DNA of 64,000 nt from Ascidia mentula (Eukaryota; Chordata; Ascidiacea; Phlebobranchia; Ascidiidae): contig OX387202.1 in assembly GCA_947561715.1 (NCBI GenBank), positions 20,101,001 to 20,165,000 on the forward strand. The letters are read 5' to 3'. The translations under genes were made by a program, and so were the position numbers. Each line of letters opens with the position of its first letter. Positions within the stretch are counted from its first letter, which is position 1. Below, in pieces: positions 9,465-62,324 of this stretch. The notes beneath the pieces are model-generated. The model was not told where the DNA came from and ran no database searches. It saw only the letters and a program-made list of their open reading frames with translations.

Positions 9465-9623
9465 ATGGCGGCCTTGGCTTCGCTTTGCGACGCTTACGGC
9501 AGTGATTCTGATTTTAGCGATAACGACGAGCAATTTACGCAAGTAGATCAAGCTGGCACCAAAGTGAATTTGCCTTTACCGCAAGCTATTTCTTCATTGT
9601 TTGGAGACATTTTGGCGAAATAA
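9465..9623 (+). pseudogene. USB1: USB1 exon 1, 5' fragment cut by a transposon (copy A)
   Basis: The frame opens with ATG at 9465 in a good context and encodes the acidic N-terminus MAALASLCDAYGSDSDF and onward to LFGD. It then runs into the transposon's terminal repeat and stops at 9621-9623 after 52 codons. The same start is intact in copy B at 60338. The last 138 host bases before the transposon (9471-9608) are repeated after it at 17929-18066, with about four substitutions between the two. This fragment cannot make the enzyme by itself. Confidence 0.85.
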
Positions 9624-10010
9624 AAAAAAAATTCTACGAAAATTATTTTACGCATGAGTGAATACAGCTCAATTCAAATTTCTATGAATTCAAAACGTGT
9701 TTTATACGTGATTCAGAAATGTAACTAACTAAAAATCCGCAAAAAAACAAAACAATCAGAGGAAATAAACAAAAAATTGATAAAATATTAAAAAATTTTA
9801 CAAATGAAAGCAACATGGACCAGATCTATACCAATTTTACATACAAAAAGCAACTGTTAATGTAAACCAAAATTCAAACACTTTCCGGGCCATAGGATTT
9901 CCTGTAATTTTGCACAGGGCTTGCCTAGAGCATACAGGTGAAGATGATATAAGTTAAAATACCAACCGGCTCCACAATTCCCAGCGAAATGGCAGGTCAT
10001 TGAATGTGAC
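9609..10010. repeat. Left terminal inverted repeat of the transposon
   Basis: This region pairs in inverted orientation with 17115-17918 once the hAT MITE at 17178-17596 is removed. It contains one copy, inverted, of the 206-bp repeat that is tandemly amplified at the right end (phrases CCGGGCCATAGGATTTCCT and GCTCCACAATTCCCAGC). Confidence 0.85.
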
Positions 10011-10405
10011 GGCATAAAGGCGATTTGTTGTGATATGTAATAAATTAGCCTATTTTGTGTCAGTATGCCGGTATTGGTATAAAGCCACTACACCACGTCA
10101 AGGTTCCGGCAATCGTAGTGGTTTTATTTTGCAGATAAAACTACATTTGGATGCAATCACATCCAAATGAAGAAAAGAACTGATCTGAAATGTAAACATA
10201 TTGTTTTATTCTGAAATTTATAACAAAAACATAAGTGATAAGTTAGTTCACATGCATTGATATGTTCCTATACACTGGTTTAGAACCATATGGTAGTCTG
10301 GCATCCCCTTCTGAAAAACTCTTGTTTATCTAAAATGTATTTCAAATGAACGTGGAAACAACAAGTATACACAATAAGATGGCTGGCAAATTTAACAGTG
10401 TCCTT

Positions 10406-10834
10406 TTAAAGAAAAATCGTTGGTTTAGAACGGACCCTTCTACACGTTTCTTCGTATGTACTGCTACTCGTACTCATTAAATAACAAATGATGGCCTCAA
10501 AGTACAAAACGTTGTTTAGGAAAAAATTTACATCGAGTATTTTGTCCATCACCATTTCACTCAACATGCTTCCTTCCACAATCAAACCTGGTTTCAAATC
10601 TCGGCCGCAAAATGATTCACGGAAAACCTGACTACCAACAAGTCGTTGACGCACGAGACGACGACAAAACGAATATTCCACGAATCGCATTATATTGTTC
10701 ATTTCATCCTGGGAAATTGTAAGGGGAGAAAAATTTTTGTTGTACTTTATCAACATATTTTTTTTACCATGGTAATATAAACATAATGAATTATGAATCT
10801 GACGCTCTTCTGGTGGAGAACAACAAATATACAC
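10406..10834 (-). pseudogene. C-terminal part of the transposon polyprotein, unrecognised
   Basis: This 142-codon minus-strand frame lies beyond the Penelope insertion on the same strand as the transposase. It is probably the continuation of the polyprotein after the USP-like block. If the Penelope element and one target duplication are taken out, the two frames are adjacent but out of phase. I see no known domain. A USP histidine box is not visible. It includes the phrase PPEERQIHNSLCLYYHGKKN. Confidence 0.4.
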
Positions 10835-10850
10835 CTTTTGTTTAAAAAAG

Positions 10851-12093
10851 ATTGTATTTTCTGACGTTTCGCCTGTACGTACGACTAGGCTTCTTCAGAG
10901 AATAAAACAAACACAGTAGCGAAGCGAACCCACAGGGCAAAGAAATTGAGCGACGAAAAACAAAAGGGCGTAACAGCTAAAACACAGCGGGACATAATTC
11001 AATGGACAACATCGATCATGGGTCAAACGGTCAAACCTGGGAAACAAAAGTCACGAATTGTTACGGGCGAAATTGCGGAACACGGGCGAAAGTACTTTTC
11101 CATCGTTCCGATTTAAAACATTCGGTAGCGAATTAATATAATAATTTTCCACAACCAACCGTTTTGCCAAAATTGTTTCTTGTTTTAATACTTTTGCTTC
11201 CTTCCAATTGATACGGTGGTCGGTGTCAAGCATGTGGGCACATAGGGCAGATTTATTGGGTTCCATATTGCGTATGGCTTCCTTGTGTTCTTTAATACGG
11301 GACGTTAAATTGCGCTTAGTCTGGCCAATATACACAGTGTTACAATCAAGACAAGGGATTAAGTAAACTACACCGGTCATTTGAAGCATGGGAATACGGT
11401 CTTTAGGTTTGGGAAACATGTTTTCTAAAGTGCATACCGGTTTCATGGCAACTTTTACGCCAGTGGCGTTGAGTATTCTTGATATCCGCTCAGAAACTCC
11501 CTGTACATATGGCATGGAAGTGAATGCTGTGTATGTTTGTGTGGGTTTGTTGTGTGTGTGGGGTGTGAGATTTAGGTTAGTGGGAAATTTGTTTAGTTTT
11601 AGAACGTTTCGAATGTGTTTGCGTTCAACCCTCCGAGAGTGTGGATCGGCAATATGTGTAATCGTTCTATTATATAAGGTTCTGGCCACAGTGAGTTTGA
11701 TGTTTCGGATGGTGTGAGGTGTATTGTAAGTAGCGGTTAGTGTGTGTAGGCTTGTAAAAAATGGAGGTGGTAAGTTTCCCGTCCGGGTTTGCAGTGACGT
11801 TTACGTCCAAAAATGACAGACTATGGTCATGTTGTGTTTCCCGGGTAAACTTAAAAGAAGGTTCGATGCTGTTTATGTGGTTATGAAACCCTGCGACCTC
11901 GTCTTTTGCTATGATGACGTACGTGTCATCGACATAGCGGAGCCAAAGTCGCGGGGGTGTTTTGAAGGAAGCAAGAGCGGTTTGCTCAAGTTGTTCCATT
12001 ATAATGTTGGCCAGAACCGGTGAAATGGGAGAGCCCATGGGGGTGCCAATAAACGACCAGTTTAAACCACAACTCTTTATTACGGAAGCAAAA
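10851..12093 (-). mobile_element. 5'-truncated Penelope-like retroelement with GIY-YIG endonuclease
   Basis: Minus-strand frames show the end of a reverse transcriptase (GSPISPVLANII, then the YVDD active-site box) at 11670-12070. A second frame (11051-11689) carries a GIY-YIG endonuclease (VVYLIPC, VYIGQT, then the Arg and His of SRIKEHK). The two frames are out of phase near 11690, so at least one frameshift is present. The copy starts inside the reverse transcriptase, so it is truncated. It is flanked by a 9-bp duplication, TTAAAAAAG (10842-10850 and 12094-12102). RT plus GIY-YIG is diagnostic of Penelope-like elements. Confidence 0.93.
10862..10900 (-). ncRNA. Hammerhead-like motif at the 3' end of the Penelope element
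   Basis: On the minus strand the order is CTGAAGA, one A, a stem of GCCT with AGGC, then GAAACGTC. This matches the hammerhead core apart from the one extra A. Its location at the 3' end of a Penelope-like element fits the known presence of hammerhead motifs in their terminal repeats. Cleavage activity is not shown. Confidence 0.4.
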
Positions 12094-15000
12094 TTAAAAA
12101 AGCATTAAAAATTCAGTGGGGTCCTGCTGCTCATTTAAATTAAAATTAAGGTGACTACAGACGTCTTCGACCAATTTCAAGTATGATGAGGAATCAACGT
12201 AGTTCTGTGCAAGATGACAAACTAAGTGACCAATCCTACTTTCTATCGTGGCTTTACTGGGAAAAACACAAGGGCGATCTAACAAACATTGAAGAGCTTG
12301 TAACACAGAATTTAACCAACAGTTATTGTATAAATTTGTAAGACCGGGCAAAACTAGCTTTTTTTAACAATCCAAGTATTTAATTTATCACTGCAACTGA
12401 TCGATTCCTGGACAAGCGCAAACACAATCCAAATACGATATCGCGCAACGTCGAACTCAATCTCATCAATCCCAATTATGTTGTTTGCAATTTTTTCTAC
12501 GGTGAAACATACACACAAACCGCATTTAGACAGATCACTCTGATATACAAGTGAGTCGGATTTAAAAGTAAGGTTACGACCGGTTATTGAAACAAAAATC
12601 GGAATTAAATATTTTCTTACTAAAGGCGTGAGTTCTTTTCGCGGACTTCCAGTAGAATCATAAAGAACCATTTCGTTCTCAAAATGTTTAAACCACAAAA
12701 TCACAAAATGCCCTTCAAACAGAACTGGAATGAAAATATACTCACACAAACGTTCGTTACGAAACATGCCATGAAGTGCTTTGCGAATATTTTTGAATTG
12801 TATGCCCTGCAAAATTCTCCCGCTGTAATAGTTGACACAAACCCAAAGGCGCCAGTCATACGTAAATTACAATAACGTGTTCTGGAAATATAACAGTCTA
12901 CAACGTTGTCCGTTAACCAACCAATTGTTAAGTCACTGTGTGTATTCGCCGGGTTTTGAGTACAATAAGTTTTCCCACGAGGTCTACTGCAAAGGGAACA
13001 CAAATCTAACCACGAAACTGACTGACGACAGGGCATGACGAGGGCGGTGTCAAAAATTGAAGTTGGGGTAAAAGGTATATGATGCCAAATAAAATCTGCA
13101 ATTTTTTTACAGTCAATAAAACTATCATGGAATTTTGGACAGACAGAGAAAAATGGCATTGTCGGGGTGCACTTAAGTGTTAACATTGGTTGTGGGGAAA
13201 GTGATACTTTGTTTTCAAATTTTACACGTTTACACATAATTTCCGATGAGTAAAACTGGTTTTGTTTCTTTTCCTCTTTTTGAACTTTGACTCCACAACC
13301 AATGTACGTTTGGCGGTTTTAATATTATTTGCTTTTGAAGGGGATTTGTTCGGTTGTTCACGAAAGCTCAACATAGAATCTGCAAAAAGTTTTTGTAAAA
13401 CTTTAATAGCATCATAATATTTTGAGACAAAATCGTCTATACGAGCTATTCTTTTTCCATTGAATATATTTGTTTTCAAATCACCGAAATGCTCCTCAAT
13501 TATTCCTTGGGTTTTGTTATTGCGTAAAACTGTTTGGTGTACACAACTTTTCATGACGTTACAGTCTGTGGAATAAGTGTAAAACATTTTTGCCTGCTCG
13601 TTACTAGTTTTGCCGTCGTAAATACATTGACGTGACAATCCCCCAAGCATAATCTTTGATGTTGCACATATTCTACTTAAAACCACTTCAATTACACGTT
13701 CACAAAAACTGGGATTGCAGTAAAGATTGTTTTTTATTTTTGTTTCGTTTTGTTTGTACACATGTGAATTTAAAAATTCATCTAATTTGCGTTTGTAAAT
13801 CGGCAACAAAATGGAGATGTTTTTCCTGTAATTTGTCAGTATCTTTATTACAAAAAGTGTAGTCCGTATCCTCTTTCACGCCATTGTCGTCGTCAGTCAT
13901 ATTGATACTGAATTTACCAGAAATTACCATTGATGTTAGCCGATTAAAATGTGTCTGAACTAATGAGGATGATGTTTCGCAGTTAGTCAACACAATGAAA
14001 CTTTCCACAGCAATGTCTAAGTCTGCAATCGTCTCACAATTAAAAAAAACATTGAGCCAAAACAAGTAAGTTTTTGACAGTTTGGAACTTTTGCAATGTT
14101 TGCTGCACAACGACTTAGCTGCTTTCATTGCATGGCTATAACAATTGTGAACAACAGTTTTTTTTAGGTCGCCGTAATTTGGAACCCCTGTCGCAATGCC
14201 GTTACAACGGTTATAATATTCCAAACGAGATTCTCTACAAAACGCTTTCAAAACTGCGTTCCACATTGCCATTAAGCCATCAATGATAAGCAGTTTTGGC
14301 TGGCGGGACACACTACAGACTTTGATACAATCAAAAAGAAACGTTTCCAAAAAGTGACCTATCGAAATTGCGTCATGGTTCGTTGTCACGCAAGTTGCAA
14401 TTGGAAGCGGTGTGCAACCTTTGCTTGGGTTTCTAATTAACAAAGTATAAACTTGAAAGTCTTTGTAATTTTCCATCCGGCGCAACACGCTTCCAATGGC
14501 ATCAAAATACACAACGTCCACAGCGCAAATTCGGTTAAACGTTTTCAATTGTGCGTTCGTGTACATCGTTACCAAAGGAGGATGTAAACGAATGCAACGT
14601 ACAAACTTTATATTATCCTTTTCCATTTCTAAAAGCTTTACACATAAATTTACAAACCATAATCTACTGTGCTTGTTTCCGAGGCTGTTTTCGCTTTTAA
14701 TGTTATTTAAAACTGATTTTGATGGAAAATAAGTATGGGCGCCTAACCAACGTTCCTCGGGACAAAGTTTGTCAAACAATTTTCTGTGCTGATTTACGGC
14801 AGTTTGATTTTTCAACTCTTGGCGAATTTTGTCCCTCAGCAAGCCACTTATGCGTCTACTTTTTCTACGTCCAGGTTTATGATTACGCTTACCAGATATT
14901 TCAACCTTCGACCTTGTCTACAAATGACCAAAATGTTACAACAAACTTAACGCCACACATGCAATCTTCACATCTTTTATGGGCGCAATACAAATTTATC

Positions 15001-16133
15001 CAACCTTCCTTGTTACAGTTTTTATCCTTAGCAATCGCCTCAAAGTTTAACAAATAATTGTTTGATACATTCGGGACACAACCGGCATACATCTTTCGAA
15101 TTTGTTCAACAGCAATATCAACATACAACTCACTAGCAAAATGGTGATCGGATCTATTTTCGACCATGGCTTGCCACTCCTGCAAGGACAACATAAACAT
15201 GCCACGAACATTAACATTCGCACTGTGATGAAATTTTCTCTGAATTTCCAAACTTACTCCACCAAGTTCATTAATTACATCACAAGTTTCTTTGTTAGGA
15301 GAATAAACACATGCATTATCGTTTTCGGCTGCAATTTCTCCAAATAACATCGTCGTAATATCATCTCCGAAACTGTTGTTATCCAAACCATCAAAACCAC
15401 TCTGGTGGAGTTCTATGTTTTCCTCAGAAGCAACGCATGATGCCTTTTCCTCTACAGATCTAGAAGCAACCGGTGTACTAGTTTTAACGGGGAACTCAAC
15501 GTCAACAGCGAAAGTCTCGAAATTAAAACTATGACAGGTTGTGTCACCGGAAGACGCATTCGGAATTTTATCGTTAGGCGAAAGTTTATTGTCGCCATTT
15601 AGTGAAACTTCACACTGTTGTGTTCTATGTGCAAAGCAAGATTGAGATTCAAGATGAACGCCAGAACATACCAAATTCGAGCACTTCCACTGGTCTTTCG
15701 TTAAAGTTACTGCGACAGACGATTTGTCAAACACGCATTTGGGATGAAACCACTGCAGACACGTTTCACACTCCACCATTAATGTACCATCGTAGGGCAT
15801 ATTGCAAACACAGAATAAAGTTTCATCAGGTGCAGGCGTACTAGCTGGTGACAAATTTTGGGATATTTCCAAGTGATGCGTTTTTTTGAAACCCGTTTGA
15901 ACTTTTTTGCGAAATTCACTGTTTGAAGCCCAAAACTTTTTTACTTTTAACCTGTTTTTTTCGCTCAAACCAAGTTTACAACATTTCAAAACCTCCTTAA
16001 CGGCCTTGTTTGGCAGCCTTGACGTCCTTGGATATTCATGCAAACATTTAACTAGAGCTTGAACAGCTCCAAAAAAATTGATTTCCTCGTTTCGTGGTGT
16101 GGTTAAGGAGGTGGAACCGCGGCGTGGAGCCAA
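12094..16133 (-). pseudogene. PHD-DDE transposase fused to Ulp1-like and USP-like protease domains (frameshifted)
   Basis: Successive minus-strand frames appear to be one ancestral protein with about five single-base shifts (near 14895, 13800, 13230, 12820 and a run of seven A near 12356). Order of domains: (1) 14901-16133, a PHD finger at residues 108-156 (C108, C110, C122, C125, H130, C133, C151, C156), then a small Cys cluster. (2) 13778-14842, the DDE core with D114 (FDAIG) and D188 (LIIDG), then a Cys/His motif HNCYSHAMKAA. (3) 13222-13809, the probable catalytic Glu in GIIEEHFGDLK. (4) 12701-13237 and 12354-12812, an Ulp1/C48-like peptidase: WLTDNVVDCYI, H35 in GHFVI, D52 in LYDST, Q91 and C97 in QSDLSKCG. 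(5) 12094-12351, the N-terminal part of a ubiquitin-specific protease: catalytic Cys in NNCWLNSVLQAL, then QQDPTEFL. The start at 16133 is the first Met of the open frame. Introns are an alternative to frameshifts, but GT-AG boundaries are not obvious. Confidence 0.8.
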
Positions 16134-16290
16134 CGACTTCTTAATTTCTTTTTCATTAGCCTAACAAAACTGGAACAGCTTTTTTAATCGCTTGTTAATT
16201 TCAACTCCCTCCCATAAATTGCAAGAGCACAGAAAATTAAAGCCAAGTGTTTTTGTGAATTGTTTACGTCCATAAAAGTCCAAGTATTTC

Positions 16291-17177
16291 TCTGGGAATT
16301 GTGGAGCCGGTTGGTATTTTAACTTATATCACCTTCACCTGCATGCTCTAGGCAAGCCCTGTGCAAAATTATAGGAAATCCTATGGCCCGGAAAGTGTTT
16401 GAATTTTCGCTTTTTGTCAAGATGTCTCTGCCGCCATTGCGCTCACAAGCGGCCTCTATGCCGTCACACACAATGACCTTTGTTTGAGTCCATTTCGCTG
16501 GGAATTGTGGAGCCGGTTGGTATTTTAACTTATATCACCTTCACCTGCATGCTCTAGGCAAGCCCTGTGCAAAATTATAGGAAATCCTATGGCCCGGAAA
16601 GTGTTTGAATTTTCGCTTTTTGTCAAGATGTCTCTGCCGCCATTGCGCTCACAAGCAGCCTGTATGCCTTCACACACAATGACCTTTGTTTGAGTCCATT
16701 TCGCTGGGAATTGTGGAGCCGGTTGGTATTTTAACTTACATCACCTTCACCTGCATGCTCTAGGCAAGCCCTGTGCAAAATTATAGGAAATCCTATGGCC
16801 CGGAAAGTGTTTGAATTTTCGCTTTTTGTCAAAATGTCTCTGCCTCCATTGCGCTCACAAGCAGCCTCTATGCCGTCACACACAATGACCTTTGTTTGAG
16901 TCCATTTCGCTGGGAATTGTGGAGCCGGTTGGTATTTTAACTTATATCACCTTCACCTGCATGCTCTAGGCAAACCCTGTGCAAAATTATAGGAAATCCT
17001 ATGGCCCGGAAAGTGTTTGAATTTTCGCTTTTTGTCAAAATGTCTCTGCCGCCATTGCGCTCACAAGCAGCCTGTATGCCGTCACACACAATGACCTTTG
17101 TTTGAGTCCATTTCGCTGAAAATTGTGGAGCCGGTTGGTATTTTAACTTATATCACCTTCACCTGCATGCTCTAGGC
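16291..17177. repeat. 206-bp subterminal tandem repeats of the transposon
   Basis: Starts of the phrase GGAATTGTGGAGCCGGTTGG recur at about 16293, 16499, 16705, 16911 and 17117, giving a regular 206-bp period over 4.3 units. Units differ by a few bases each. One unit is present in inverted form in the left terminal repeat. The array is interrupted at its inner-most partial copy by a hAT MITE. Confidence 0.92.
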
Positions 17178-17596
17178 CAGTGGTTCTCAAACTGTGGTAC
17201 GCGTACCACTAGTGGTACGCAAGAGCTTTTCAAGTGGTACGCGATTTAGTCTACTCTATACAATTTGCCGCACTTTGCAGAAGCCAAAACCGCTGCAAAT
17301 ACATGTTGTCGGTTTTCTTTATTGTGTATTTGTGACGCAATAGTATCAACGTGAAATTGTTGCACTGTTGAAGTAATTCTGACATCGTGTATTCAACTGT
17401 GCAACAATTTCACGTGGATACCATTGCGTCACAAATGCACAATAAAGAAATCCAATCAACTGGTGATATTGGCTAAATTGTTATTCATTGGTGGTATGTC
17501 ATAACAGTTATGGTATAGGCCTAGTAATACGGTGGTACGCAGTGCAATAAAAAACATAAGAGCGGTACGTGATTGGAAAAAGTTTGAGAAACACTG
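17178..17596. mobile_element. hAT-type MITE nested in the right terminal repeat
   Basis: The ends are CAGTGGTTCTCAAACT and its inverted partner AGTTTGAGAAACACTG. A perfect 8-bp target duplication, CTCTAGGC, flanks it (17170-17177 and 17597-17604). Length is 419 bp with no coding capacity. It contains an internal inverted repeat built around the phrase AACGTGAAATTGTTGCAC. An 8-bp duplication and a CAGTGGTTCTC end are typical of hAT elements. Confidence 0.93.
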
Positions 17597-17604
17597 CTCT
17601 AGGC

Positions 17605-17918
17605 AAACCCTGTGCAAAATTATAGGAAGTTCTATGCCCCGGAAAGTGATTGATTTTTGGCTTACATTAACAGTTGCTTTTTGTATGTAAAATTGGTATA
17701 GATCTGGTCCATGTTGCTTTCGTTTGTAAAAATTTTCGTTATTTTGTCAATTTGTTGTGCTTTTCTTCGGATTGTATTGTTTTTTTTTGCAGATGATAAG
17801 TTGGTCACATTTCTGAATCACGTATGAAACATGTTATAATTTCATAGAAATTTGATTTAAGCTGTGTTTACTGATGCGTAAATTAATTTTCTTGAATTTT
17901 TTTTTGTTTCGCCGAAAT
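17605..17918. repeat. Right terminal inverted repeat of the transposon
   Basis: This is the terminal part of the right inverted repeat, matching 9609-9900 in inverted orientation (for example GGTATAGATCTGGTCCATGT pairs with its complement near 9820). It ends at ...GCCGAAAT next to a 10-bp stretch GACGACGGTG not found at the copy B locus, and then host exon sequence. Confidence 0.85.
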
Positions 17919-18227
17919 GACGACGGTGCCTTGGCTTCGCTTTGCGACGCTTACGGCAGTGATTTTGATTTTAGCGATAACGACGAGCAATTTACGCAAG
18001 TAGATCGAGCTGGCACCAAAGTAAATTTGCCTTTACCGCATGCTATTTCTTCATTGTTTGGAGACACCAAGTCGTTGAAACCCCAGGAACACCGAGGTCG
18101 AATCCGGTCGTTTCCCCATGAGCGCGGGAATTGGGCAACGTATGTTTACATACCTTACCCTAAAAAAAGTTTGGATGAATTTAAATTCAACATTGAAAAA
18201 ACACTCGAAAGCAGAGAAAAAGGGTAT

Positions 18228-18368: not shown

Positions 18369-18407
18369 TTTGGTGACCCCGAGCGTGCAAAAACGTTTTT
18401 TTGCATT

Positions 18408-19091
18408 ATGAATGAAACCGCAAACTCAGAGAACGCTGTAGCCATCAAGCTACCTTTGTTTTGGACAGCTCAGCCACGAGTTTGGTTTCGGCAAGCCGAG
18501 GCGCAGTTCGCTCTGAAAAACATTACAGGCGATCAGACGAAGTACTATTATGTCGTTTCGGCCTTACATCAGGACACAGCAAAGCGTCTACTCAACCTGC
18601 TGGACAATCCGCCCAATGATGACAAGTACGAGTCAATTAAAGCACGATTGATTGACACCTTTGGTCTTACGCGTTCGCAGAGGGCCAGGCAGCTACTGCA
18701 CATGCCCCCTTTGGGCGATAGAATGCCATCCGCTTCAATGGATGACATGCTGGCTTTGCTTGGTGATGACAAGGAATGCTTTGTTTTTCAAGAACTGTTC
18801 TTGGAGCGCTTGCCAGAATATGTACGGACACGACTGCTAGGAGAGGAGTTTCGTGATTCGCGACTCTTAGCACGCAAAGCTGATGCGATATGGACAGGAA
18901 GTCAGCCGTCTACGGATTTCGCACTTTCCAGCGTGCGTCGCAGCAAACCTTCCAAGTCTTCATCAGGTTTGCCACAGATAATGCCCGATCCGAAGTCGCT
19001 TTGTTTTTATCATCGTCGTTTCGGCAAAGATGCGATAAAGTGCCGCCCCCCTTGTGCACTGCAGGGAAACGACGAGGCCGGCCATCATTAG
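18408..19091 (+). CDS. gag: Gag of the Ty3/gypsy element
   Basis: The structural protein of the retrotransposon is 227 codons from the ATG at 18408, the first in-frame Met after the primer-binding region. The start resembles animal Ty3 gags ([20 protein letters not shown]), and a zinc-knuckle-like cluster lies near the end ([18 protein letters not shown]). The open frame actually extends upstream through the LTR into USB1 exon 1 (from 17874), probably by chance. Pol follows in another frame, overlapping the gag end, as is usual when pol is made by frameshifting. Confidence 0.9.
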
Positions 19092-19099
19092 TTGCTACG

Positions 19100-22025
19100 A
19101 TGGCCGGCGCAGTTAGTAGTCTTTTCTTTGTGTGGGATAGCTCAGCGGGTCGTAATTTTCTTGTTGACACCTGCGCCGAGATAAGCGTCACACCTCCCAC
19201 GGGACTAGAGCGCCGCACCAATCCTCCTGAAAAGGCTCTAGTCGCTGCTAATGGTACTCACATCCGGACGTACGGTTCACGTCTAGTCACCATGAATTTT
19301 CCTCCCGGCAAATTTCAATGGAAATTTGTTCTGGCCGAAGTTTCCCGGCCGTTACTCGGCGCTGATTTCCTGCGGGCAAATTCCCTTCTGGTTGACCTCA
19401 AGCACCGACGCCTAATCAACGCCGAAACCTTCTCCAGCAGTAAACTGGGCAAAGCAGCGCAATCGGCTCCCAACCTTAACGCCATTTCCGCAGGCACATC
19501 GGTCTATGCTCGAATGTTGGCTGAATTTCCAGGGATAGCTTCTCCCCATTTCTCGCAGTCGCTTCCTAAGCATGGAGTTCAGCATTTCATCCCCACCAGC
19601 GGACCACCCGTGCACTCTCGCGCTCGACGACTTCCTCCCGAAAAGCTCGCCCGCGCTAAGAAGGAATTTCACAACATGCTACAACTGGGAATTATTAGAC
19701 GCTCATCCAGTCCATGGGCTTCGCCCCTGCACATGGTACCAAAGTCGTCCGGTGGGTGGCGCCCATGCGGCGATTACCGCCGTCTTAACGCTGCTACCCA
19801 GCCTGATCGTTACGCTATCCCCCACATCCAAGATTTTTCGGCTCGTTTGGCCGGATGTCGAGTTTTCTCCAAAATTGACCTTGTTCGCGGCTATCACCAA
19901 GTTCCTGTGGCACCGGAAGATATTGCGAAAACGGCGGTTATCACGCCTTTTGGCCTTTTCGAATTTCTTCGCATGCCCTTTGGTTTGAAAAACGCGGCAC
20001 AAGCCTTCCAGCGACTTATGGACACGGTATGTCAATCCTTGGATTTTGTGTTCGTCTACCTAGATGACATACTCGTCGCAAGCAAGTCCCTCTCTGAGCA
20101 CTACGACCATTTAAAACGCCTTTTTAAGCAGCTTTCAGATCATGGCCTCGTCATTAACCTCGGCAAATGCCAGTTTGGAGTATCCAAAATTGATTTTCTG
20201 GGACATCGGGTTGACACCAACGGTGCACGACCTCTTCCCAACAAGGTTGAAGCCATTCAGAATTTCCCTCGCCCTACTACTATCAAAGGACTCCCAGAAT
20301 TCGCAGGTATGGTAAACTTTTACCATCGTTTTATTCCTGGGGCAGAAATACAGTGCCTTTGACAGAGAACTACTCGCCTTGCACCTTGCCATTCGTCACT
20401 TTCGATATTTTCTGGAAGGTCGCGTGTTTACCGCTTACACGGATCACAAACCTTTGACTTTTGCTTTTACTAAAGTGTCAGCTCCATGGTCATCGCGCCA
20501 ACAATGTCATTTAACCGCGATTTCAGAGTTTACCACAGACGTGCGACACATCGCAGGCAAGCAAAACCACGTTGCCGACGCACTCTCGCGCGGTTCCATT
20601 GATGCTGTTCGACTACCTCTGGATTTGGATTATTCGTCATTGGCAGCCGCTCAGTCCTCTCCCGAAGTTCAAGCGTATCGCACTGCTGTCACTAACCTTA
20701 AACTAGAGGACATACAGCTCGATCAATCCGGGACCACCATCCTCTGTGACGTCTCGTCCGGCTCACCCCGTCCAGTTGTTCCAACATCATGGCAACGCAA
20801 AATTTTTGACATAATACATGGTCTATCGCATCCGTCGATACGGTCTACACGCAAACTTGTCGCATCCAAGTTTGTTTGGCACGGCTTACGCCGCCAGGTC
20901 ACCCTTTGGGCGAGACAGTGCATCCACTGTCAAAGGGCAAAAGTCCAGCGCCACACTCGTGCGCCTCTGGCGAACTACCCACCCTGTCGTGCACGTTTTC
21001 AACAGATCAACGTCGATATCGTCGGTCCTCTCGCACCTTCACAGGGAAACAGGTACCTTTTTACCATTGTTGACCGTTTTACCAGATGGCCGGAAGCAAT
21101 TCCTATGCCAGATGCAACCACCCTGACGTGTGCACGGGCCTTCGCGTTCCATTGGGTTTCTCGTTTCGGGATTCCTTCCGACCTCACATCGGATCGCGGC
21201 CCCCAGTTTACCTCGGAGTTATGGACGGTTTTCACCCAACTTCTGGGAATCCAACTACACCGAACAACTGCGTTTCACCCTCAGGCTAATGGCCTTGTGG
21301 AGCGATTTCATCGGCATATGAAGAGCGCCCTAATGGCACGGCTAGCAGGCCCCAACTGGGTAGACCAGCTCCCGTGGGTTATGCTTGGCATCCGGACTGC
21401 TCCCAAAGAAGACCTGCAGGCATCATCGGCCGAACTTGTTTACGGTTCTACCATAACGGTACCCGGCGATTTCTTCCGTTTCGGCCAATCCTTTCCTACC
21501 CCTCAAGATGTCATTCCATCGTTGAGGGACACAGTGCGTCAACTGGTGCCGACATCGATGTCACGCCATGGTTCCGTTCGCACAATGCTCCCACAAGCGT
21601 TAAGCACGACCCCGTACGTTTTTGTACGCAAAGATGGACACCGACCCCCGCTTACGCCGCCATACGATGGCCCATATCGCGTCCTTGATCGCAATAGCAA
21701 GACTTTTACGTTTGCCATTGGTGGACACAATCAGGTCGTTTCCATCGACCGTGTGAAGCCTGCACATGTCGACCTCACACAACCGGTACAGGTGGCTGTG
21801 CCTCCTCGCCGCGGTCGACCCCCGACATCAACGCACCACCCACCGCCATCCGACCCGGGGCTGTCCGAGCCGGTTTCGCACACTTCGACTCCGCCTTTTC
21901 TGGTTCCACCTGAACCCTCGCATACATCACTGGGCCCACCGGAGCACCAGCCCAACTTTTCACATTCAGGCAGACACACGCGCACGCGTGGCAACATTCG
22001 TATTCCACTTCGTTTTCAGTGTTGA
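19100..22025 (+). pseudogene. pol: Pol of the Ty3/gypsy element (protease, RT, partial RNase H, integrase)
   Basis: The protease shows [11 protein letters not shown], where the family has D-T/S-G; the catalytic Gly is Cys here. The RT has the full core, including YLDDILVAS near 20060. The frame ends at 20362 just after [10 protein letters not shown]. It is followed in another frame (20379-22025) by [20 protein letters not shown] and YTDHKPL of RNase H, so the connection and the first RNase H Asp are deleted. The integrase has the HHCC finger (HGLSHPS, CIHC), the D-D-E core (DIVGPL, TSDRGPQF, NGLVERFH) and a GPY-type C-terminal module. This copy cannot make an active polymerase. Confidence 0.93.
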
Positions 22026-39965: not shown

Positions 39966-41090
39966 ATGGAAATTAGCAAAGTAAACATCAACGTTAAATT
40001 TGCACCAAAATTACCTAATTAACAACTACATTGAAAATATGGAAGATTCACTGAGACCTGCTGGCGAAAATCAATACACATTTATGCTGCGTAGATGAAA
40101 CAAATATGAAAATAATGCAAATGATAAATGTGGAGTTTAAATACATGTTGCGCATAATCCAACCTTAAACTGTTGGCCAGTGTTACGATACTTAATGTAA
40201 AACTTTCAGTGCGGCCAGCAATTATGCAAGGAAGTGCTCAGTGCGTGAGTTTGTTGATTGTTAATTGTTTATTGCGCATAACTGCATTGTCCCGTCTACT
40301 GAGGTCTCAACAACATCAGTAAACGAACGCAATGAAAAGAATGCTGTTGTTATGTACATCGTTGCCAAATACACCACAAAACCTTGTTAGCAAAAAACTG
40401 ATTTGTCAATTGTTGCGATACAGAAGTCACTTTTCCTTGATTTCTTACGTCACCCATTGTAAAAAGCCACCTGCCACAAGTCACGTAATGCTTCAGTGAT
40501 CGCAATGCGTCGAACTAGACACGCGGGGATCATGCATTCATCACGTGGACCGCTTGGTCTTTCAAAAAAAATTTGACGTACTTCTACGTCAATTAACATT
40601 GTGGGCTAAGTTTCTTTTGTAGATACAAGTCAGCCGCACAGAAAGTGTTGAGAATATTTGTTTATGATTAAAGTTGTTTTCTGACAATAAAGGAACAAAC
40701 ATATCTTTGTAAACGAGTTTTGCAGGCGAGTTATCCATCGCAAATTACATCTGGCATCTCTACTTGGTTTAAACTTCACCTTCAACTCTATCAGTTATAA
40801 CTTGTCCAAGTACGAGTGACATTAAACCACGGTCAGCTACAATACAAGCTTGATCTGAACTGGATCACGTTGCGTTTCCAACCACACAGACCCGAGCAAA
40901 CTCAATGCAGTAATCACGACGCAACTGTGACTTGCTTAAAACCTCCTTCAAGTTGCCGGAGACCTTTGAATTTCCGAGGACCGAATAACGTCACTGATAC
41001 GAAAACACGGCGTATCAAAATACATCCATGCAAAGGAAGTCGGTTCAAATACCTAAGTGCGTGCGCTCGTTTGCAAGAGTTCGTAAAACC
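39966..41090. other. Region between the ficolin-like gene and the satellite
   Basis: The upstream side of the ficolin-like gene, presumably containing its promoter, but no element can be named with confidence. The 103-codon frame at 40816-41127 runs into the satellite and has no family signature. Confidence 0.45.
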
Positions 41091-41823
41091 TGCATTTATT
41101 CTGGCTTTGAATTCTCGCTCCCTTTAATCGGTGCGTTTGGGTTGGTTATGGAACAAGACGCAGTTAAACTCAGTGCAATTTAAGCTGTTCTATCTGAATA
41201 CTAATGGTTGACACTGAATTGAGATGAAATAAATATGTTGGATGACTTGGACGGTGGCAAAAGCCGCTTAAATATACAAGTTTTACATGTGTTGCGACTT
41301 ATATGCCAATTATGAGCCTCAATCCGGTACTTAACAATATTATTTATGATCGATGGGAAATCCTATTTTATTAACGCATTTGACATAAGATCGCACGTGA
41401 GTTCTAATTGTTGTGTTTTCCTAACCTGACTTTAATTGAAACTTGATGCAAACATTCCAACAATATTCATTTAAAATGAACAATTTTGGACACGAAATTA
41501 CCATGCGCAATTATACCAACGCCAAACTGAGTGAATTTACGCCCAAACGCACAGACAAAATTGAACAGAACCAAATCACAAAACCGATGAACTGAGATGA
41601 GCACAGTACAGCTGCGCTGCCCTGCCCTGCCCTGCCTCGGTCCTCAGCTAAACGCACACGGAAAGTTACAAAGAAAGGTCGGTTACTGAAAGACGATGAA
41701 GGACAGTCACATGGGAAAACTTAAAGTCTCATAGCGACCAAGTCACTTGAGATTAATATGACGCAAAACAGCTGTTAAACCATATCACACAAAAGCCAAA
41801 AAAAGACACAAATGACGTGAATG

Positions 41824-43420
41824 GTCAGCTGTTGCTATCGCTAAATTTTGAAATGAAACCCGCTTGCCAAGACGATCTAAAAATACCAATTACCCAACCC
41901 AGTGGAGTGAGACGCCAAAATGACAACTGGCCATGTAACCTTAAGTCCATAAATGCAACCGTTGACATGTAATGCAAAATCACGTTACAACATGTACATA
42001 TTCAAATGAAATATTACACACAAATATTTTCGTATCCTGCTCCTGGTTTTCAGGTGAATTTCTTTTCTCACTTTAACAAAACCAGGCGGATGACGGATCG
42101 CTAATATTAAAGAACTTATGCGTGTTTCTTTTCCTAATCCTGTGCTTTCAAACAAACTCTTACAAACGCAACTATTCAGATACCAAAAAATAAACCTTTT
42201 AATGCTTTGTCTTATATTAATATAATGACTACAATCGCTCAACATCCTATAGAACGTTGGCAACACAATTGACGTCACGACACAAAACTGCAAAAAAGTG
42301 GGGAAATGCTTCGTTGGCGCTGAGCGTGAAGTCAATACAAGTTTGTAGTAAGGCGTGAAGGAATGTAGTTGTGGGGCGAATGGAGTTGCACTGGTTTCAC
42401 TAAATGGGCGCCTGACTTTATTAAACGGACTAATGTTAAAAACGACAATAAAACGTACATACAATTCCAGTAGTAATACCATGCTTTCGCATAGCAAGGC
42501 AGGATCGCCCCACTTGGAGGGCAGTGAAAGCGTGATATTACTTCTGCGTTGTCTGATTACTGTGGTGGAGATCCTCTACGCATGTGAAGGTCGCCTGACA
42601 ATCCAGCTCGGCTGCAATGCCTTGGCTGCGAAGCCTGTGAACTTTACAATTCCAGTAAACGCCCGACACTAAAAACAACCGTACAGCTCAACGCCCATCT
42701 CAAGACTAACGGGTCATACACACAGCACTTCTTGCACCGGCTAATCAACCAATCAACTGTATGTTTAGGCAGGGGAAGATACAGATTCAATCGATTTGGT
42801 TTCAAATTGGTTGATGCTTTATTAAGTTGCGCAGTCAAGCTTGAGACAAGCAAAACACTCGTTCATGAGGCGGCAACCGCAACACGAGAAAGGCAATGGC
42901 ACGCTTCGATGCACAGGCGAACACTGTGGTCGCCATAATCTAAATTTTACTTTTCGCCCCACCTAAAAGATGTGCACAGAGGTAACAAGTTGTCAAACAC
43001 TCTTTCCCACTGGTTGATTTGGTCACACACACATATATATATATCAATGGATTGGTTATTGTTGTATCTGCTTTGGTGATGCTAGCTGGAGCACAGGAAG
43101 GCGCATCTTACCGATATTTTGTCTTTTCAGAGTATGACGTTCATCAGATTACCAACAGTTCGAAGTAGTTTTGCCTGTATTGATGATCACTTACCATTGC
43201 TTCCAGAATAATGAACACAACATTACGGCAAACAACCATATTTGAGGGTTTTGGGATAAAATGGCCTCCAATTTAACATATTCAGGGTTAAGTCCGTCAC
43301 CACTAGTTACTTGGAGATTTGATGTAATGTAAATCGTCTCCTACTGAGTGAATTTGCCCTCCCTTGGGGCATAACGATAAGAATCCAACTTCATGCTCCG
43401 GGAACCGTTGCTTGTGGACA
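41824..43420. repeat. Long-unit-specific block, first copy
   Basis: Present in the first long unit and again in the second (about 47349-49350, enlarged by the MITE), and missing from all short units. Contains a TATATATATA run near 43035. No RNA gene was recognised. Confidence 0.8.
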
Positions 43421-46400
43421 CTATCAGCATCAGCACTCGCAGGACAAAGCACAGCCTGCTGTTCCTTCGTGAAGTCGATATTGAGTTGATTTATTTGCGA
43501 AAGATAATTGTAGACCCAACTGCTACCTTTCGGTTAAAAGATTGAACACGAATTTAAACAACAAAACGAAGTTCTCCATGTAAGCGAAAAGTTCAATAAA
43601 TACTGCAAGTATATCAACCTGCGCTGCTCTGGAGGGACCGACAAATCTGTCCCATCTTTTCAAATATAAAATATGCATTTTTTCTGGCTTTGAATTCTCG
43701 CTCCCTTTAATCGGTGCGTTTGGGTTGGTTATGGAACAAGACGCAGTTAAACTCAGTGCAATTTAAGCTGTTCTATCTGAATACTAATGGTTGACACTGA
43801 ATTGAGATGAAATAAATATGTTGTATGACTTGGACGGTGGCAAAAGCCGCTTAAATATACAAGTTTTACATGTGTTGCGACCTATATGCCAATTATGAGC
43901 CTCAATCCGGTACTTAACAATATTATTTATGATCGATGGGAAATCCTATTTGATTAACGCATTTGACATAAGATTGCACGTGAGTTCTAATTGTTGTGTT
44001 TTCCTAACCTGACTTTAATTGAAACTTGATGCAAACATTCCAACAATATTCATTCAAAATGAACAATTTTGGACACGAAATTAACATGCGCAATTATACC
44101 AACGCCAAACTGAGTGAATTTACGCCCAAACGCACAGACAAAATTGAACAGAACCAAATCACAAAACCGATGAACTGAGATGAGCACAGTACAGCTGCCC
44201 TGCCCTGCCTCGGTCCTCAGCTAAACGCACACGGAAAGTTACAAAGAAAGGTCGGTTACTGAAAGACGATGAAGGACAGTCACATGGGGAAACTTAAAGT
44301 CTCAAAGCGACCAAGTCACTTAAGATTAATATGACGCAAAACAGCTGTTAAACCATATCACACAAAAGCCAAAAAACACACAAATCACATGAATGGTCAG
44401 CTATATCAGCATCAGCACTCGCAGGACAAAGCACAGCCTGCTGTTCCTTCGTGAAGTCGATATTGAGTTGATTTATTAGCGAAAGATAATTGTAGACCCA
44501 ACTGCTACCTTTCGGTTAAAAGATTGAACACGAATTTAAACAACAAAACGAAGTTCTCCATGTAAGCGAAAAGTTCAATAAATACTGCAAGTATATCAAC
44601 CTGCGCTGGTCTGGAGGGACCGACAAATCTGTCCCATCTTTTCAAATATAAAATATGCATTTTTTCTGGCTTTGAATTCTCGCTCCCTTTAATCGGTGCG
44701 TTTGGGTTGGTTATGGAACAAGACGCAGTTAAACTCAGTGCAATTTAAGCTGTTCTATCTGAATACTAATGGTTGACACTGAATTGAGATGAAATAAATA
44801 TGTTGGATGACTTGGACGGTGGCAAAAGCCGCTTAAATATACAAGTTTTACATGTGTTGCGACCTATATGCCAATTATGAGCCTCAATCCGGTACTTAAC
44901 AATATTATTTATGATCGATGGGAAATCCTATTTGATTAACGCATTTGACATAAGATCGCACGTGAGTTGTAATTGTTGTGTTTTCCTAACCTGACTTTAA
45001 TTGAAACTTGATGCAAACATTCCAACAATATTCATTTAAAATGAACAATTTTGGACACGAAATTAACATGCGCAATTATACCAACGCCAAACTGAGTGAA
45101 TTTACGCCCAAACGCACAGACAAAATTGAACAGAACCAAATCACAAAACCGATGAACTGAGATGAGCACAGTACAGCAGCCCTGCCCTGCCTCGGTCCTC
45201 AGCTAAACGCACACGGAAAGTTACAAAGAAAGGTCGGTTACTGAAAGACGATGAAGGACAGTCACATGGGAAAACTTAAAGTCTCAAAGCGACCAAGTCA
45301 CTTGAGATTAATATGACGCAAAACAGCTGTTAAACCATATCACACAAAAGCCAAAAAAACACACAAATCACATGAATGGTCAGCTATATCAGCATCAGCA
45401 CTCGCAGGACAAAGCACAGCCTGCTGTTCCTTCGTGAAGTCGATATTGAGTTGATTTATTAGCGAAAGATAATTGTAGACCCAACTGCTACCTTTCGGTT
45501 AAAAGATTGAACACGAATTTAAACAACAAAACGAAGTTCTCCATGTAAGCGAAAAGTTCAATAAATACTGCAAGTATATCAACCTGCGCTGCTCTGGAGG
45601 GACCGACAAATCTGTCCCATCTTTTCAAATATAAAATATGCATTTTTTCTGGCTTTGAATTCTCGCTCCCTTTAATCGGTGCGTTTGGGTTGGTTATGGA
45701 ACAAGACGCAGTTAAACTCAGTGCAATTTAAGCTGTTCTATCTGAATACTAATGGTTGACACTGAATTGAGATGAAATAAATATGTTGGATGACTTGGAC
45801 GGTGGCAAAAGCCGCTTAAATATACAAGTTTTACATGTGTTGCGACCTATATGCCAATTATGAACCTCAATCCGGTACTTAACAATATTATTTATGATCG
45901 ATGGGAAATCCTATTTGATTAACGCATTTGACATAAGATCGCACGTGAGTTCTAATTGTTGTGTTTTCCTAACCTGACTTTAATTGAAACTTGATGCAAA
46001 CATTCCAACAATATTCATTTAAAATGAACAATTTTGGACACGAAATTAACATGCGCAATTATACCAACGCCAAACTGAGTGAATTTACGCCCAAACGCAC
46101 AGACAAAATTGAACAGAACCAAATTACAAAACCGATGAACTGAGATGAGCACAGTACAGCTGCCCTGCCCTGCCTCGGTCCTCAGCTAAACGCACACGGA
46201 AAGTTACAAAGAAAGGTCGGTTACTGAAAGACGATGAAGGACAGTCACATGGGAAAACTTAAAGTCTCAAAGCGACCAAGTCACTTGAGATTAATATGAC
46301 GCAAAACAGCTGTTAAACCATATCACACAAAAGCCAAAAAAACACACAAATCACATGAATGGTCAGCTATATCAGCATCAGCACTCGCAGGACAAAGCAC

Positions 46401-47414
46401 AGCCTGCTGTTCCTTCGTGAAGTCGATATTGAGTTGATTTATTAGCGAAAGATAATTGTAGACCCAACTGCTACCTTTCGGTTAAAAGATTGAACACGAA
46501 TTTAAACAACAAAACGAAGTTCTCCATGTAAGCGAAAAGTTCAATAAATACTGCAAGTATATCAACCTGCGCTGCTCTGGAGGGACCGACAAATCTGTCC
46601 CATCTTTTCAAATATAAAATATGCATTTTTTCTGGCTTTGAATTCTCGCTCCCTTTAATCGGTGCGTTTGGGTTGGTTATGGAACAAGACGCAGTTAAAC
46701 TCAGTGCAATTTAAGCTGTTCTATCTGAATACTAATGGTTGACACTGAATTGAGATGAAATAAATATGTTGGATGACTTGGACGGTGGCAAAAGCCGCTT
46801 AAATATACAAGTTTTACATGTTTTGCGACCTATATGCCAATTATGAGCCTCAATCCGGTACTTAACAATATTATTTATGATCGATGGGAAATCCTATTTG
46901 ATTAACGCATTTGACATAAGATCGCACGTGAGTTCTAATTGTTGTGTTTTCCTAACCTGACTTTAATTGAAACTTGATGCAAACATTCCAACAATATTCA
47001 TTTAAAATGAACAATTTTGGACACGAAATTAACATGCGCAATTATACCAACGCCAAACTGAGTGAATTTACGCCCAAACGCACAGACAAAATTGAACAGA
47101 ACCAAATTACAAAACCGATGAACTGAGATGAGCACAGTACAGCTGCCCTGCCCTGCCTCGGTCCTCAGCTAAACGCACACGGAAAGTTACAAAGAAAGGT
47201 CGGTTACTGAAAGACGATGAAGGACAGTCACATGGGAAAACTTAAAGTCTCAAAGCGACCAAGTCACTTGAGATTAATATGACGCAAAACAGCTGTTAAA
47301 CCATATCACACAAAAGCCAAAAAAAGACACAAATCACATGAATTGTCAGCTGTTGCTATCGCTAAATTTTGAAATGAAACCCGCTTGCCAAGACGATCTA
47401 AAAATGCCAATTAC

Positions 47415-47844
47415 TAGGGATGCACCGAAAGTTCGGTTTGCCGAATTTATTCGGCCGAAACCAAGGTTTTCGCAATTATTCGGTTTCGGCCGAATATTTT
47501 TGCAAAATTCGGCCGAAACCGAAACTTTTTTACTGCATGCAACACTGGTACGCAAAGTTTAGTATAGTTTAGAATCATTGTTCAAACTGTACTAGTGTGT
47601 TTTATTTGGTAATTGTCATCGAAATCAACTTTAAGCATTTGGTACAGCATTCTTTAAGTGCCAATAAAAGGCTGTATGATAGGATCAGATGCATTCTATC
47701 ACATGTTTTGTTTAAATTTGTTGCGATTTTAAGGAGATGGATACCAAAATTAGTTTCGGTTGATTCGGCCGAATTTGTTCGGCAACTTTTGCCGAATATT
47801 CGGTTTTGGCCGAATAAAAAAAATGCTGTTTCGGTGCATCACTA
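47415..47844. mobile_element. hAT-type MITE in the second long satellite unit
   Basis: The ends are TAGGGATGCACCGAAA and inverted TTTCGGTGCATCACTA, flanked by the 8-bp target duplication CCAATTAC (47407-47414 and 47845-47852). The empty site is visible in the first long unit near 41886. The interior is rich in the palindromic phrase TTCGGCCGAA. No coding capacity. Confidence 0.95.
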
Positions 47845-50800
47845 CCAATTACCCAACCCAGTGGAGTGAGACGCCAAAATGACAACTGGCCATGCAACCT
47901 TAAGTCCATTAATGCAACCGTTGACATGTAATGCAAAATCACGTTACAACATGTACATATTCAAATGAAATATTACACACAAATATTTTCGTATCTTTCT
48001 CCTGGTTTTCAGGTGAATTTCTTTTCTCACTTTAACAAAACCAGGCGGATGACGGATCGCTAATATTAAAGAACCTTTGCGTTGTTTCTTTTCCTAATCC
48101 TCTGCTTTCAAACAAACTCTTACATACGCAACTATTCAGATACCCAAAAATAAACCTTTTAATGCTTTGTCTTATATTAATATAATGACTACAATCGCTC
48201 AACATCCTATAGAACGTTGGCAACACAATTGACGTCACGACGCAAAACTGCAAAAAAGTGGGGAAATGCTTCGTTGGCGCTGAGCGTGAAGTCAATACAA
48301 GTTTGTCGTGAGGCGTGAAGGAATGTGGTTGTGGGGCAAATGGAGTTGCACTGATTTCACTAAATGGGCGCCTGACTTTATTAAACGGACTAATGTTAAA
48401 AACGACAATAAAACGTACATACAATTCCAGTAGTAATACATGCTTTCACATAGCAAGGCAGGATCGCCCCACTTGATGGGCAGTGAAAGCGTGATATTAC
48501 TTCTGCGTTGTCTGATTACTGTGGTGGAGATCCTCTATGCATGTGAAGGTCGCCCGACAATCCAGCTCGGCTGCAATGCCTTGGCTGCGAAGCCTGTGAA
48601 CTTTACAATTCCAGTAAACGCCCGACACTAAAAACAACCGTACAGTTCAACGTCCATCTCAAGACCAACGGGTCTTACATACAGCACTTCTTGCACCGGC
48701 TAATCAACCAATCAACTGTATGTTTAGGCAGGGGAAGATACAGATTCAATCGATTTGGTTTCAAATTGGTTGATGCTTTATTAAGTTGCGCAGTCAAGCT
48801 TGAGACAAGCAAAACACTCGTTCATGAGGCGGCAACCGCAACACGAGAAAGGCAATGGCACGCTTCGATGCACAGGCGAACACTGTGGTCGCCATCATCT
48901 AAATTTTACTTTTCGCCCCACCTAAAAGATGTGCACAGAGGTAACAAGTTGTCAAACACTCTTTCCCACTGGTTGATTTGGTCACACACACATATATATA
49001 TATCAATGGATTGGTTATTGTTGTATCTGCTTTGGTGATGCTAGCTGGAGCACAGGAAGGCGCATCTTACCGATATTTTGTCTTTTCAGAGTATGACGTT
49101 CATCAGATTACCAACAGTTCGAAGTAGTTTTGCCTGTATTGATGATCACTTACCATTGCTTCCAGAATAATGAACACAACATTACGGCAAACAACCATAT
49201 TTGAGGGTTTTGGGATAAAATGGCCTCCAATTTAACATATTCAGGGTTAAGTCCGTCACCACTAGTTACTTGGAGATTTGATGTAATGTAAATCGTCTCC
49301 TACTGAGTGAATTTGCCCTCCCTTGGGGCGTAACGTTAATAATTGTGGACAATATCAGCATCAGCACTCGCAGGACAAAGCACAGCCTGCTGTTCCTTCG
49401 TGAAGTCGATATTGAGTTGATTTATTAGCGAAAGATAATTGTAGACCCAACTGCTACCTTTCGGTTAAAAGATTGAACACGAATTTAAACAACAAAACGA
49501 AGTTCTCCATGTAAGCGAAAAGTTCAATAAATACTGCAAGTATATCAACCTGCGCTGCTCTGGAGGGACCGACAAATCTGTCCCATCTTTTCAAATATAA
49601 AATATGCATTTTTTCTGGCTTTGAATTCTCGCTCCCTTTAATCGGTGCGTTTGGGTTGGTTATGGAACAAGACGCAGTTGAACTCAGTGCAATTTAAGCT
49701 GTTCTATCTGAATACTAATGGTTGACACTGAATTGAGATGAAATAAATATGTTGGATGACTTGGACGGTGGCAAAAGCCGCTTAAATATACAAGTTTTAC
49801 ATGTGTTGCGACTTATATGCCAATTATGAGCCTCAATCCGGTACTTAACAATATTATTTATGATCGATGGGAAATCCTATTTGATTAACGCATTTGACAT
49901 AATATCGCACGTGAGTTCTAATTGTTGTGTTTTCCTAACCTGACTTTAATTGAAACTTGATGCAAACATTCCAACAATATTCATTCAAAATGAACAATTT
50001 TGGTCACGAAATTAACATGCGCAATTATACCAACGCCAAACTGAGTGAATTTACGCCCAAACGCACAGACAAAATTGAGCAGAACCAAATCACAAAACCG
50101 ATGAACTGAGATGAGCACAGTACAGCTGCCCTGCCCTGCCTCGGTCCTCAGCTAAACGCACACGGAAAGTTACAAAGAAAGGTCGGTTACTGAAAGACGA
50201 TGAAGGACAGTCACATGGGAAAACTTAAAGTCTCAAAGCGACCAAGTCACTTGAGATTAATATGACGCAAAACAGCTGTTAAACCATATCACACAAAAGC
50301 CAAAAAAACACACAAATCACATGAATGGTCAGCTATATCAGCATCAGCACTCGCAGGACAAAGCACAGCCTGCTGTTCCTTCGTGAAGTCGATATTGAGT
50401 TGATTTATTAGCGAAAGATAATTGTAGACCCAACTGCTACCTTTCGGTTAAAAGATTGAACACGAATTTAAACAACAAAACGAAGTTCTCCATGTAAGCG
50501 AAAAGTTCAATAAATACTGCAAGTATATCAACCTGCGCTGCTCTGGAGGGACCGACAAATCTGTCCCATCTTTTCAAATATAAAATATAAAAAAATATGA
50601 TTTAACATTCCAAAAGACTTTAATTTGGGCCTCATCGGGGTTCCAACTAAACTACGTTATTTTGCATTTCAGGCATTTCGCATGCTGTCCATAAAACAAC
50701 TGGCTGGAACACTAGTGCACTGGCCCAACATCGATAAAGACATTTTGAACATGTGTCTTAAGAGCTGTACATCTTAAGCCAAACATAAAAACATGGTGCC

Positions 50801-62168: not shown

Positions 62169-62324
62169 GTAACATAAACTAAAGAAGAATGCACCGACCA
62201 AATTGCAATTGCCAAACACATGGGAGTATTGATTCAAAAAACTGATCTGGCATCTCACACAGAATACCTGTGAGAACAACAAGCAGCTCATCAAAATAAT
62301 CCCCACCGATAACTGAAAGTTTAT

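Follow-up and report, generated by a model that had tools for sequence, protein, structure and literature searches.

A predicted transposase fused to a PHD finger, an Ulp1-like protease and a ubiquitin-specific protease in a probable Mutator/IS256-side DNA transposon family of Ascidia mentula

A degenerate transposon in the window

We analysed 64,000 nucleotides of the Ascidia mentula genome (contig OX387202.1, positions 20,101,001 to 20,165,000, forward strand; hereafter the window), which contain a degenerate DNA transposon on the minus strand at 9608-17927. A sequence-only reading of this DNA had described one element encoding, in order, a PHD finger, a DDE transposase core, an Ulp1-like protease and a ubiquitin-specific protease (USP)-like domain in a broken frame. 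All four parts are found in the window in this order, and the frames that hold them overlap and are broken from 16160 to 12094. The element is larger than the 12094-16133 first given for it, since its inverted repeats, which align at 9608-9932 and 17919-17595, extend from 9608 to 17927.

The PHD finger (15678-15812, minus strand, as are all parts of the element below) occupies residues 117-161 of the frame 16160-14901 and is called by Pfam with 26.8 bits (cut-off 24); 7 of its 8 zinc ligands are obvious, and by similarity it is of the H3K4me3-reader type. It is followed by a putative zinc-finger DNA-binding region, possibly WRKY/GCM1-like, at approximately 14860-15200, which has a frame break inside and was placed by alignment and by WRKY matches of a relative's model. 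The DDE transposase core (13222-14860) is split over two overlapping broken frames, 14917-13778 and 13875-13222, the first of which shares 95% identity with an intact copy (C52:2787444). The Ulp1/SENP-like cysteine protease region (12364-13318) is split over the frames 13318-12701 and 12866-12354, and the latter holds all four active-site motifs, so that His (12713), Asp (12665), Gln (12548) and Cys (12524) are in place as had been read. The USP (peptidase family C19) starts at 12363 and runs to 12050; its Cys box and QQDPTEF motif are present as described, but what remains is the first third of the domain. It was identified from intact homologues and from the frame 12363-12094, which matches Pfam UCH with 22.7 bits (E 8.8e-5), slightly below the cut-off of 23.9.

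The nearest intact copy, L030, is 97.65% identical to the window over 16287-12050 and 97.27% identical over 10785-9869. The similarity ends at 12050 and restarts at 10785, and 780 bases of L030 are skipped. The gap holds a retroelement piece (10786-12049) in which Pfam calls RVT_1 (reverse transcriptase) and then GIY-YIG in two frames after the USP start; we take this piece to be Penelope-like from its domain order. Beyond the gap lie the C-terminal region of the element gene (10406-10785), recognized by 97% identity to L030 and by the family alignment, and a shortened 3′ terminal inverted repeat (TIR) at 9608-9992, delimited by the L030 comparison and the TIR alignment. At the other end, the 5′ terminal repeat region (16286-17177) is a tandem array with a unit of 206 bp (4.3 copies at 97% matches), and the 5′ TIR is split by an insertion at 17178-17594 (no strand assigned), the repeat being broken between 17177 and 17595. 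To judge by its motif, this insertion may be a hAT-type miniature inverted-repeat transposable element. The frame of L030 opens at position 1148 (ORF orientation), and its match to the window starts only at 2761. Because nothing of L030 before 2761 matches the window except the terminal repeats, the 5′ part of the gene is gone. The window copy is thus a dead remnant that keeps a third of the USP and has lost its 5′ part.

Intact copies encode all domains in one open reading frame

When the USP fragment was used as a genome query, 57 matching places were found, and 17 of these lie inside open frames of 1871-2596 codons. The transposase piece gave at least 111 matches (108 of 171 candidates scored). 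Twenty places were fetched, of which 14 contain one frame longer than 1800 codons and six do not; three of the 17 long frames are not among the places fetched. In all 14 fetched open reading frames (ORFs), an N-terminal region, the PHD finger, the zinc finger, the DDE core, the Ulp1-like region, the USP and a C-terminal region follow each other in a single frame. Intact copies with all four domains in one frame, which had been named as the support to look for, therefore exist in the same genome, and public proteins include a full-length one, P0035. Because relatives carry all parts in one frame and independent profiles match PHD, SENP and USP proteins, the observation made in the window is far beyond chance.

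In a genome-wide search, all 17 long frames scored above the cut-off of the UCH profile, five of them with a match confined to its second half. Four whole ORFs were also scanned with Pfam. UCH was above cut-off in L029 (43.7 bits), L034 (40.1 bits) and L043 (78.6 bits) and was not listed for L042, while PHD was above cut-off in L029, L034 and L042 and slightly below it in L043.

The broken frame of the window and its third of a USP would also fit an artefact, in which the USP comes from a separate gene that lies beside the transposase by chance, or from a host gene captured in one copy. The 17 long open frames all carry the USP, which had been expected to be absent or to form its own gene in intact relatives if the fusion were spurious; moreover, the same domain order is found in P0035, the USP-bearing transposases form one clade, and both parts are under selection. 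We regard an artefact as extremely improbable, and at the level of sequence it is refuted for the family. Rather, these copies almost certainly encode one long protein, with the predicted order N-terminal region-PHD-zinc finger-DDE-Ulp1-like-USP-C-terminal region. By fold, the DNA transposon lies on the Mutator/IS256 side.

Several copies are near-identical, with a synonymous divergence (dS) in the DDE core of 0-0.004 for L036/L046, L040/L041 and L037/L038, and so the family has moved recently. L029 and L030 differ with a dS of 1.28 in the DDE core and 0.08 in the USP. In all, L029, L030, L032, L034 and L035 are mosaics, with more than tenfold differences in dS between domains of one pair, a pattern suggestive of conversion or recombination among copies. 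The N-terminal region of the ORFs shows weak constraint, and its start codon is uncertain. Tandem amino-acid repeats occur in the N-terminal parts of L029-L042 (81-bp units in L030), and a hydrophobic stretch precedes the PHD finger in most of the 14 ORFs, with a mean hydropathy of up to 2.58 over 21 residues.

The active sites of both proteases are conserved

The D/D/E residues and the CxxH motif of the DDE core are unchanged in all 14 ORFs, as are the oxyanion Asn, Cys, Gln, His and Asp and the two finger CxxC pairs of the USP. In the Ulp1-like region, His, Gln and Cys are likewise unchanged in 14 of 14 ORFs; the Asp is kept in eight and is Asn in six. The copies compared are not all alike: when the divergent L043 was set against eight others, identity was 26-29% for the Ulp1 region and 21-27% for the USP. 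To measure constraint, the ratio of nonsynonymous to synonymous substitution (dN/dS) was calculated by the Nei-Gojobori method for 11 chosen pairs, several of which share a copy, and ranges were taken from pairs with dS above 0.2. The ratio was 0.13-0.22 for the DDE core (7 pairs), 0.11-0.21 for the PHD finger (8 of the 11 pairs, 55 codons each), 0.31-0.44 for the Ulp1-like region (6 pairs) and 0.23-0.42 for the USP (6 pairs). Pairs with low dS are noisy, as in L034/L035, where the USP gives 0.70. The ratios indicate that both proteases are under purifying selection, less tight than that on the transposase.

The substitution of the Ulp1 Asp in 6 of 14 ORFs, and the fact that Pfam C48 is nowhere above cut-off in the scanned ORFs and pieces, would suit protease domains of which one or both have lost cleavage and serve to bind SUMO, ubiquitin or host factors. 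Asn stands for Asp in some active cysteine proteases, and none of the 14 ORFs departs from the Ulp1 Cys, His and Gln or from any residue of the USP active site. Pure binding modules are thus a very unlikely reading, and proteases that still cut are preferred.

Assignment of the proteases and the PHD finger

The Ulp1-like region is not called by Pfam C48 in the four whole ORFs and is below cut-off in the two pieces scanned; none of 87 Pfam C48 places in the genome is on an intact copy. In addition, in hhalign the Ulp1 profile of the ORFs does not align with the relative L052, in which Pfam does call C48. Of the profile calls that had been proposed as a check, those of PHD and UCH were mostly obtained, and the missing C48 call and the unlisted UCH of L042 count in part against the four-domain architecture. 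A profile built from the Ulp1 region matched SENP1 in the PDB (E 5.7e-6), with SENP1/2/8 making up 13 of the 15 sequences matched, and it matched the called C48 domain of L004, which lies beside a Mutator-like element (MULE) transposase in the same genome (E 5.8e-7). Because of these two matches, the region is assigned to the Ulp1/SENP (C48) family, to which its active site also conforms, with Pfam C48 itself remaining below cut-off. The USP assignment to C19 rests on its Cys, His and Asp boxes, oxyanion Asn, CxxC pairs and UCH profile, and USP36 was the first PDB match of its profile.

The PHD family profile gave PHF2, KDM7A, PHF8, SPP1, EBS, DIDO1 and BPTF as its top PDB matches. A Tyr, a Met and a Trp, the presumed aromatic pocket positions, are invariant in 9 of 9 sequences. 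By sequence, the PHD finger is nearest to H3K4me3 readers and is likely to read the chromatin of active genes.

The transposase probably lies on the Mutator/IS256 side

The D, D, C/H and E of the DDE core are also present in L052, and the triad is of the MULE type, with CxxH between the second D and the E. The predicted fold of a transposase relative is closest to ISCth4, an IS256/Mutator-type fold, in a comparison whose listing held no solved MULE. This predicted fold places the transposase on the side of Mutator (MULE) and IS256. The DDE piece of the window, modelled from its single sequence, had a mean pLDDT (predicted local distance difference test) of 37, and that model was not used. The zinc-finger region may be of the WRKY/FLYWCH type, a relative's structure model having given WRKY matches.

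Pfam MULE (PF10551) was not called in any scanned ORF or piece, and none of its 49 matches in the genome is at an intact copy; the relative P0020 reached 19.4 bits, below the cut-off of 27.6. Comparison of the transposase with one called MULE of the genome gave no useful alignment. Two other homes were rejected. Pfam KDZ (PF18758), which the sequence-only reading had brought in, has six genome matches, none at places of the element, and none was found in the ORF scans; for Ginger, there was no rve-type integrase call in four whole ORFs and two transposase pieces.

The ends of the element could be read together with a target site duplication (TSD) in one copy, L048, the ends of L036 lying beyond the fetched DNA. 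In L048, whose TIRs are about 0.8-0.9 kb long, both TIR ends show ACTGCTGTCATTTCGGCGAAATTT, and the element is flanked by AGCATTTC on each side as an 8-bp TSD. From this sole readable copy, the long TIRs and the TSD agree with the 8-11 bp described for MULEs in PMC6446971, and the 9-bp TSD of Rehavkus was not found.

Public relatives point to a single gain of the USP

An alignment from transposase to USP, used as the query, retrieved four public proteins (P0035-P0038) among 3280 candidates, and a single full-length query sequence gave no match among 3427 candidates. P0035 (1905 amino acids) has UCH (71.4 bits), PHD and the whole domain order of the ORFs, and P0036 (1735 amino acids) has the same order in a model that ends within the USP. 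The models of P0037 and P0038, the latter from Styela clava, end within the transposase. Identity to the 14 ORFs is at most 39% for P0035 and at most 34% for P0036. No relatives were found in viral contigs.

When 37 transposase regions were placed in a tree, those with a USP (16, P0036 being counted on its partial USP) grouped with the two truncated models in a single clade that has a support of 1.000. A C-terminal PHD without a USP stands at the end of the model or frame in L052, P0008, P0012 and P0017, and also in P0007 with the PHD below cut-off. The other tree members without a USP are fragments or were not judged; the longest protein of the search has 1048 amino acids, and longer ones possibly fell outside its length range. 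The likeliest history on this phylogeny is that an Ulp1-bearing transposase with a PHD finger gained the USP once.

The transposase has relatives of its own in fish, tunicates and a leech. P0006-P0034 include relatives of the transposase that teleost annotations list as host proteins, of which P0029 and P0033 have a Macro domain; these two and other teleost relatives annotated in this way are possibly domesticated genes. Such relatives, one with an ISCth4-like fold, bear on the possible absence of MULEs from vertebrates, which is treated as an open question in PMC6446971.

Comparison with known systems

The genome also holds, at C71:14497350-14501918, the adjoining frames L053 and L004 with a called MULE, a called C48 and a PHD-like end, which we take as one separate element. 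MULEs with Ulp1, this element included, resemble the family in their DDE core with CxxH, Ulp1, a PHD-like part nearby, 8-bp TSD and long TIRs. The L053/L004 element differs in that no USP was seen in it and its PHD is at the opposite end of the protein, and MULEs differ in that Pfam MULE does not call the transposases of this family, which have their own relatives. Ulp1 on MULEs is already in print (PMC2836005).

Rehavkus, described as an outgroup of MULEs with PHD and minisatellite, shares with this family a PHD in the transposase protein, satellite-like repeats and long TIRs, and differs, by its published description, in its 9-bp TSD and its arthropod and annelid hosts (PMC6446971). The main text of that paper contains none of the terms ubiquitin, peptidase, C48 and SUMO. 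Ginger1 elements carry Ulp1 or OTU C-terminal to the transposase, one of them also with PHD, but have a Gypsy-type rve core, and Table 1 of the paper lists no USP (PMC2836005). Zisupton is described with 8-bp TSDs in PMC12730594.

To call a second, ubiquitin-type peptidase unheard of goes too far. A Trichomonas vaginalis protein with transposase_11 and peptidase C19 is named in PMC2836005; like this family it joins a USP-class peptidase to a DDE-class transposase, but it is of another family, with no Ulp1 or PHD mentioned there. Helitrons encode the deubiquitinase VTD, active in vitro, and 121 of them also OTU, and thus have two deubiquitinase-type cysteine proteases on a mobile element; they differ in their rolling-circle RepHel, other protease classes and lack of a DDE transposase (PMC9741609). 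No report of a DDE transposase that carries both Ulp1 and USP was found in the literature searched, Repbase reports and most subscription journals being outside the search. The combination of PHD with Ulp1 and the pairing of deubiquitinases in Helitrons have already been published, and Ulp1 with USP on a DDE transposase appears to be new, no report of it having been found.

A tentative mechanism for the two proteases

We propose that the zinc finger would bind the TIR repeats and that the DDE core would cut and join the DNA, while the PHD finger would keep the complex close to active genes by holding it on nucleosomes that carry H3K4me3. The tethered Ulp1-like protease and USP could then take SUMO and ubiquitin off the transposase, off repair proteins and off the chromatin nearby, and this would spare the complex turnover and SUMO-dependent silencing and let repair go on. 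Reading of chromatin and stripping of SUMO and ubiquitin at the integration site, as the sequence-only reading had it, is plausible from the active sites, the selection and the PHD class. We hold the specific mechanism of PHD anchoring and removal by tethered proteases as tentative, somewhat short of an even chance. The further picture of a self-contained chromatin-guided transposase, which would recognize H3K4me3, insert DNA and use a deSUMOylase and a deubiquitinase to override SUMO-dependent silencing and steer repair, is more doubtful still. Overall, the fused architecture combined with a two-protease mechanism is probably, though by no means certainly, the best explanation.

The proteases may instead serve self-protection only, stripping SUMO and ubiquitin from the transposase against turnover or sequestration, with no action on chromatin and with a PHD that is no targeting device. 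Proteases and transposase are indeed joined in one ORF, and Helitron deubiquitinases have been suggested to prevent degradation of proteins needed for transposition (PMC9741609). Such a role would leave the strong constraint on the PHD finger and its likeness to H3K4me3 readers unexplained, and we give it roughly one chance in four. Maturation of a polyprotein is less likely again: the two proteases would act like those of viruses and cleave the element's own protein to release the transposase and accessory parts. Many domains do share one ORF of up to 2596 codons, and Ulp1-fold adenoviral proteases mature viral proteins. However, the zinc-finger CxxC pairs of the USP are kept in 14 of 14 ORFs, and USPs are, to our knowledge, not known to mature polyproteins. 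We prefer proteases that act on SUMO and ubiquitin.

Why transposons repeatedly capture SUMO and ubiquitin proteases is an unanswered question. It becomes testable here domain by domain, because both protease classes are on one transposase, intact in many recent copies and under selection. Should the PHD finger indeed guide insertion, the family would offer a case from nature of integration directed by H3K4me3.

Insertion of the window copy in a USB1-like array

The window copy has no normal TSD, and its left TIR lacks the outermost 8 bases, as judged from L048. It is flanked instead by a 139-bp direct repeat of its target, exon 1 of a USB1-like gene, at 9471-9609 and 17928-18066 (both plus strand); the HVSL (USB1-type) exon runs on to about 18224. 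The 139 bp occur once, at 60344-60482, in an empty paralogous unit. A giant target duplication was rejected in view of the shortened left TIR, the 8-bp TSD of L048 and the location of the gene in an amplified array. The repeat more likely arose afterwards, when the DNA broke and was repaired or when units of the array exchanged sequence. The insertion in USB1-like exon 1 is one example and proves no insertion preference.

Exon 1 of the USB1-like (HVSL) gene has 48 matches in the genome, some of which are pieces of one exon. Of these, 39 are clustered at C70 19.5-21.02 Mb, 38 of them on the plus strand. The window holds two array units about 98% alike, one with the element (1591-25381) and one empty (52393-63823). 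A frame at 17874-18224 starts in the TIR end and continues into the interrupted USB1-like exon, a possible chimeric start. A Gypsy-type retroelement (DUF7041, reverse transcriptase, RNase H, integrase) lies in the same gene at 18384-22025, and similarity to the empty unit restarts beyond it at 22194. Finally, repeats of about 983 bp, about 96-99% alike, are present in several blocks at 41084-50588.

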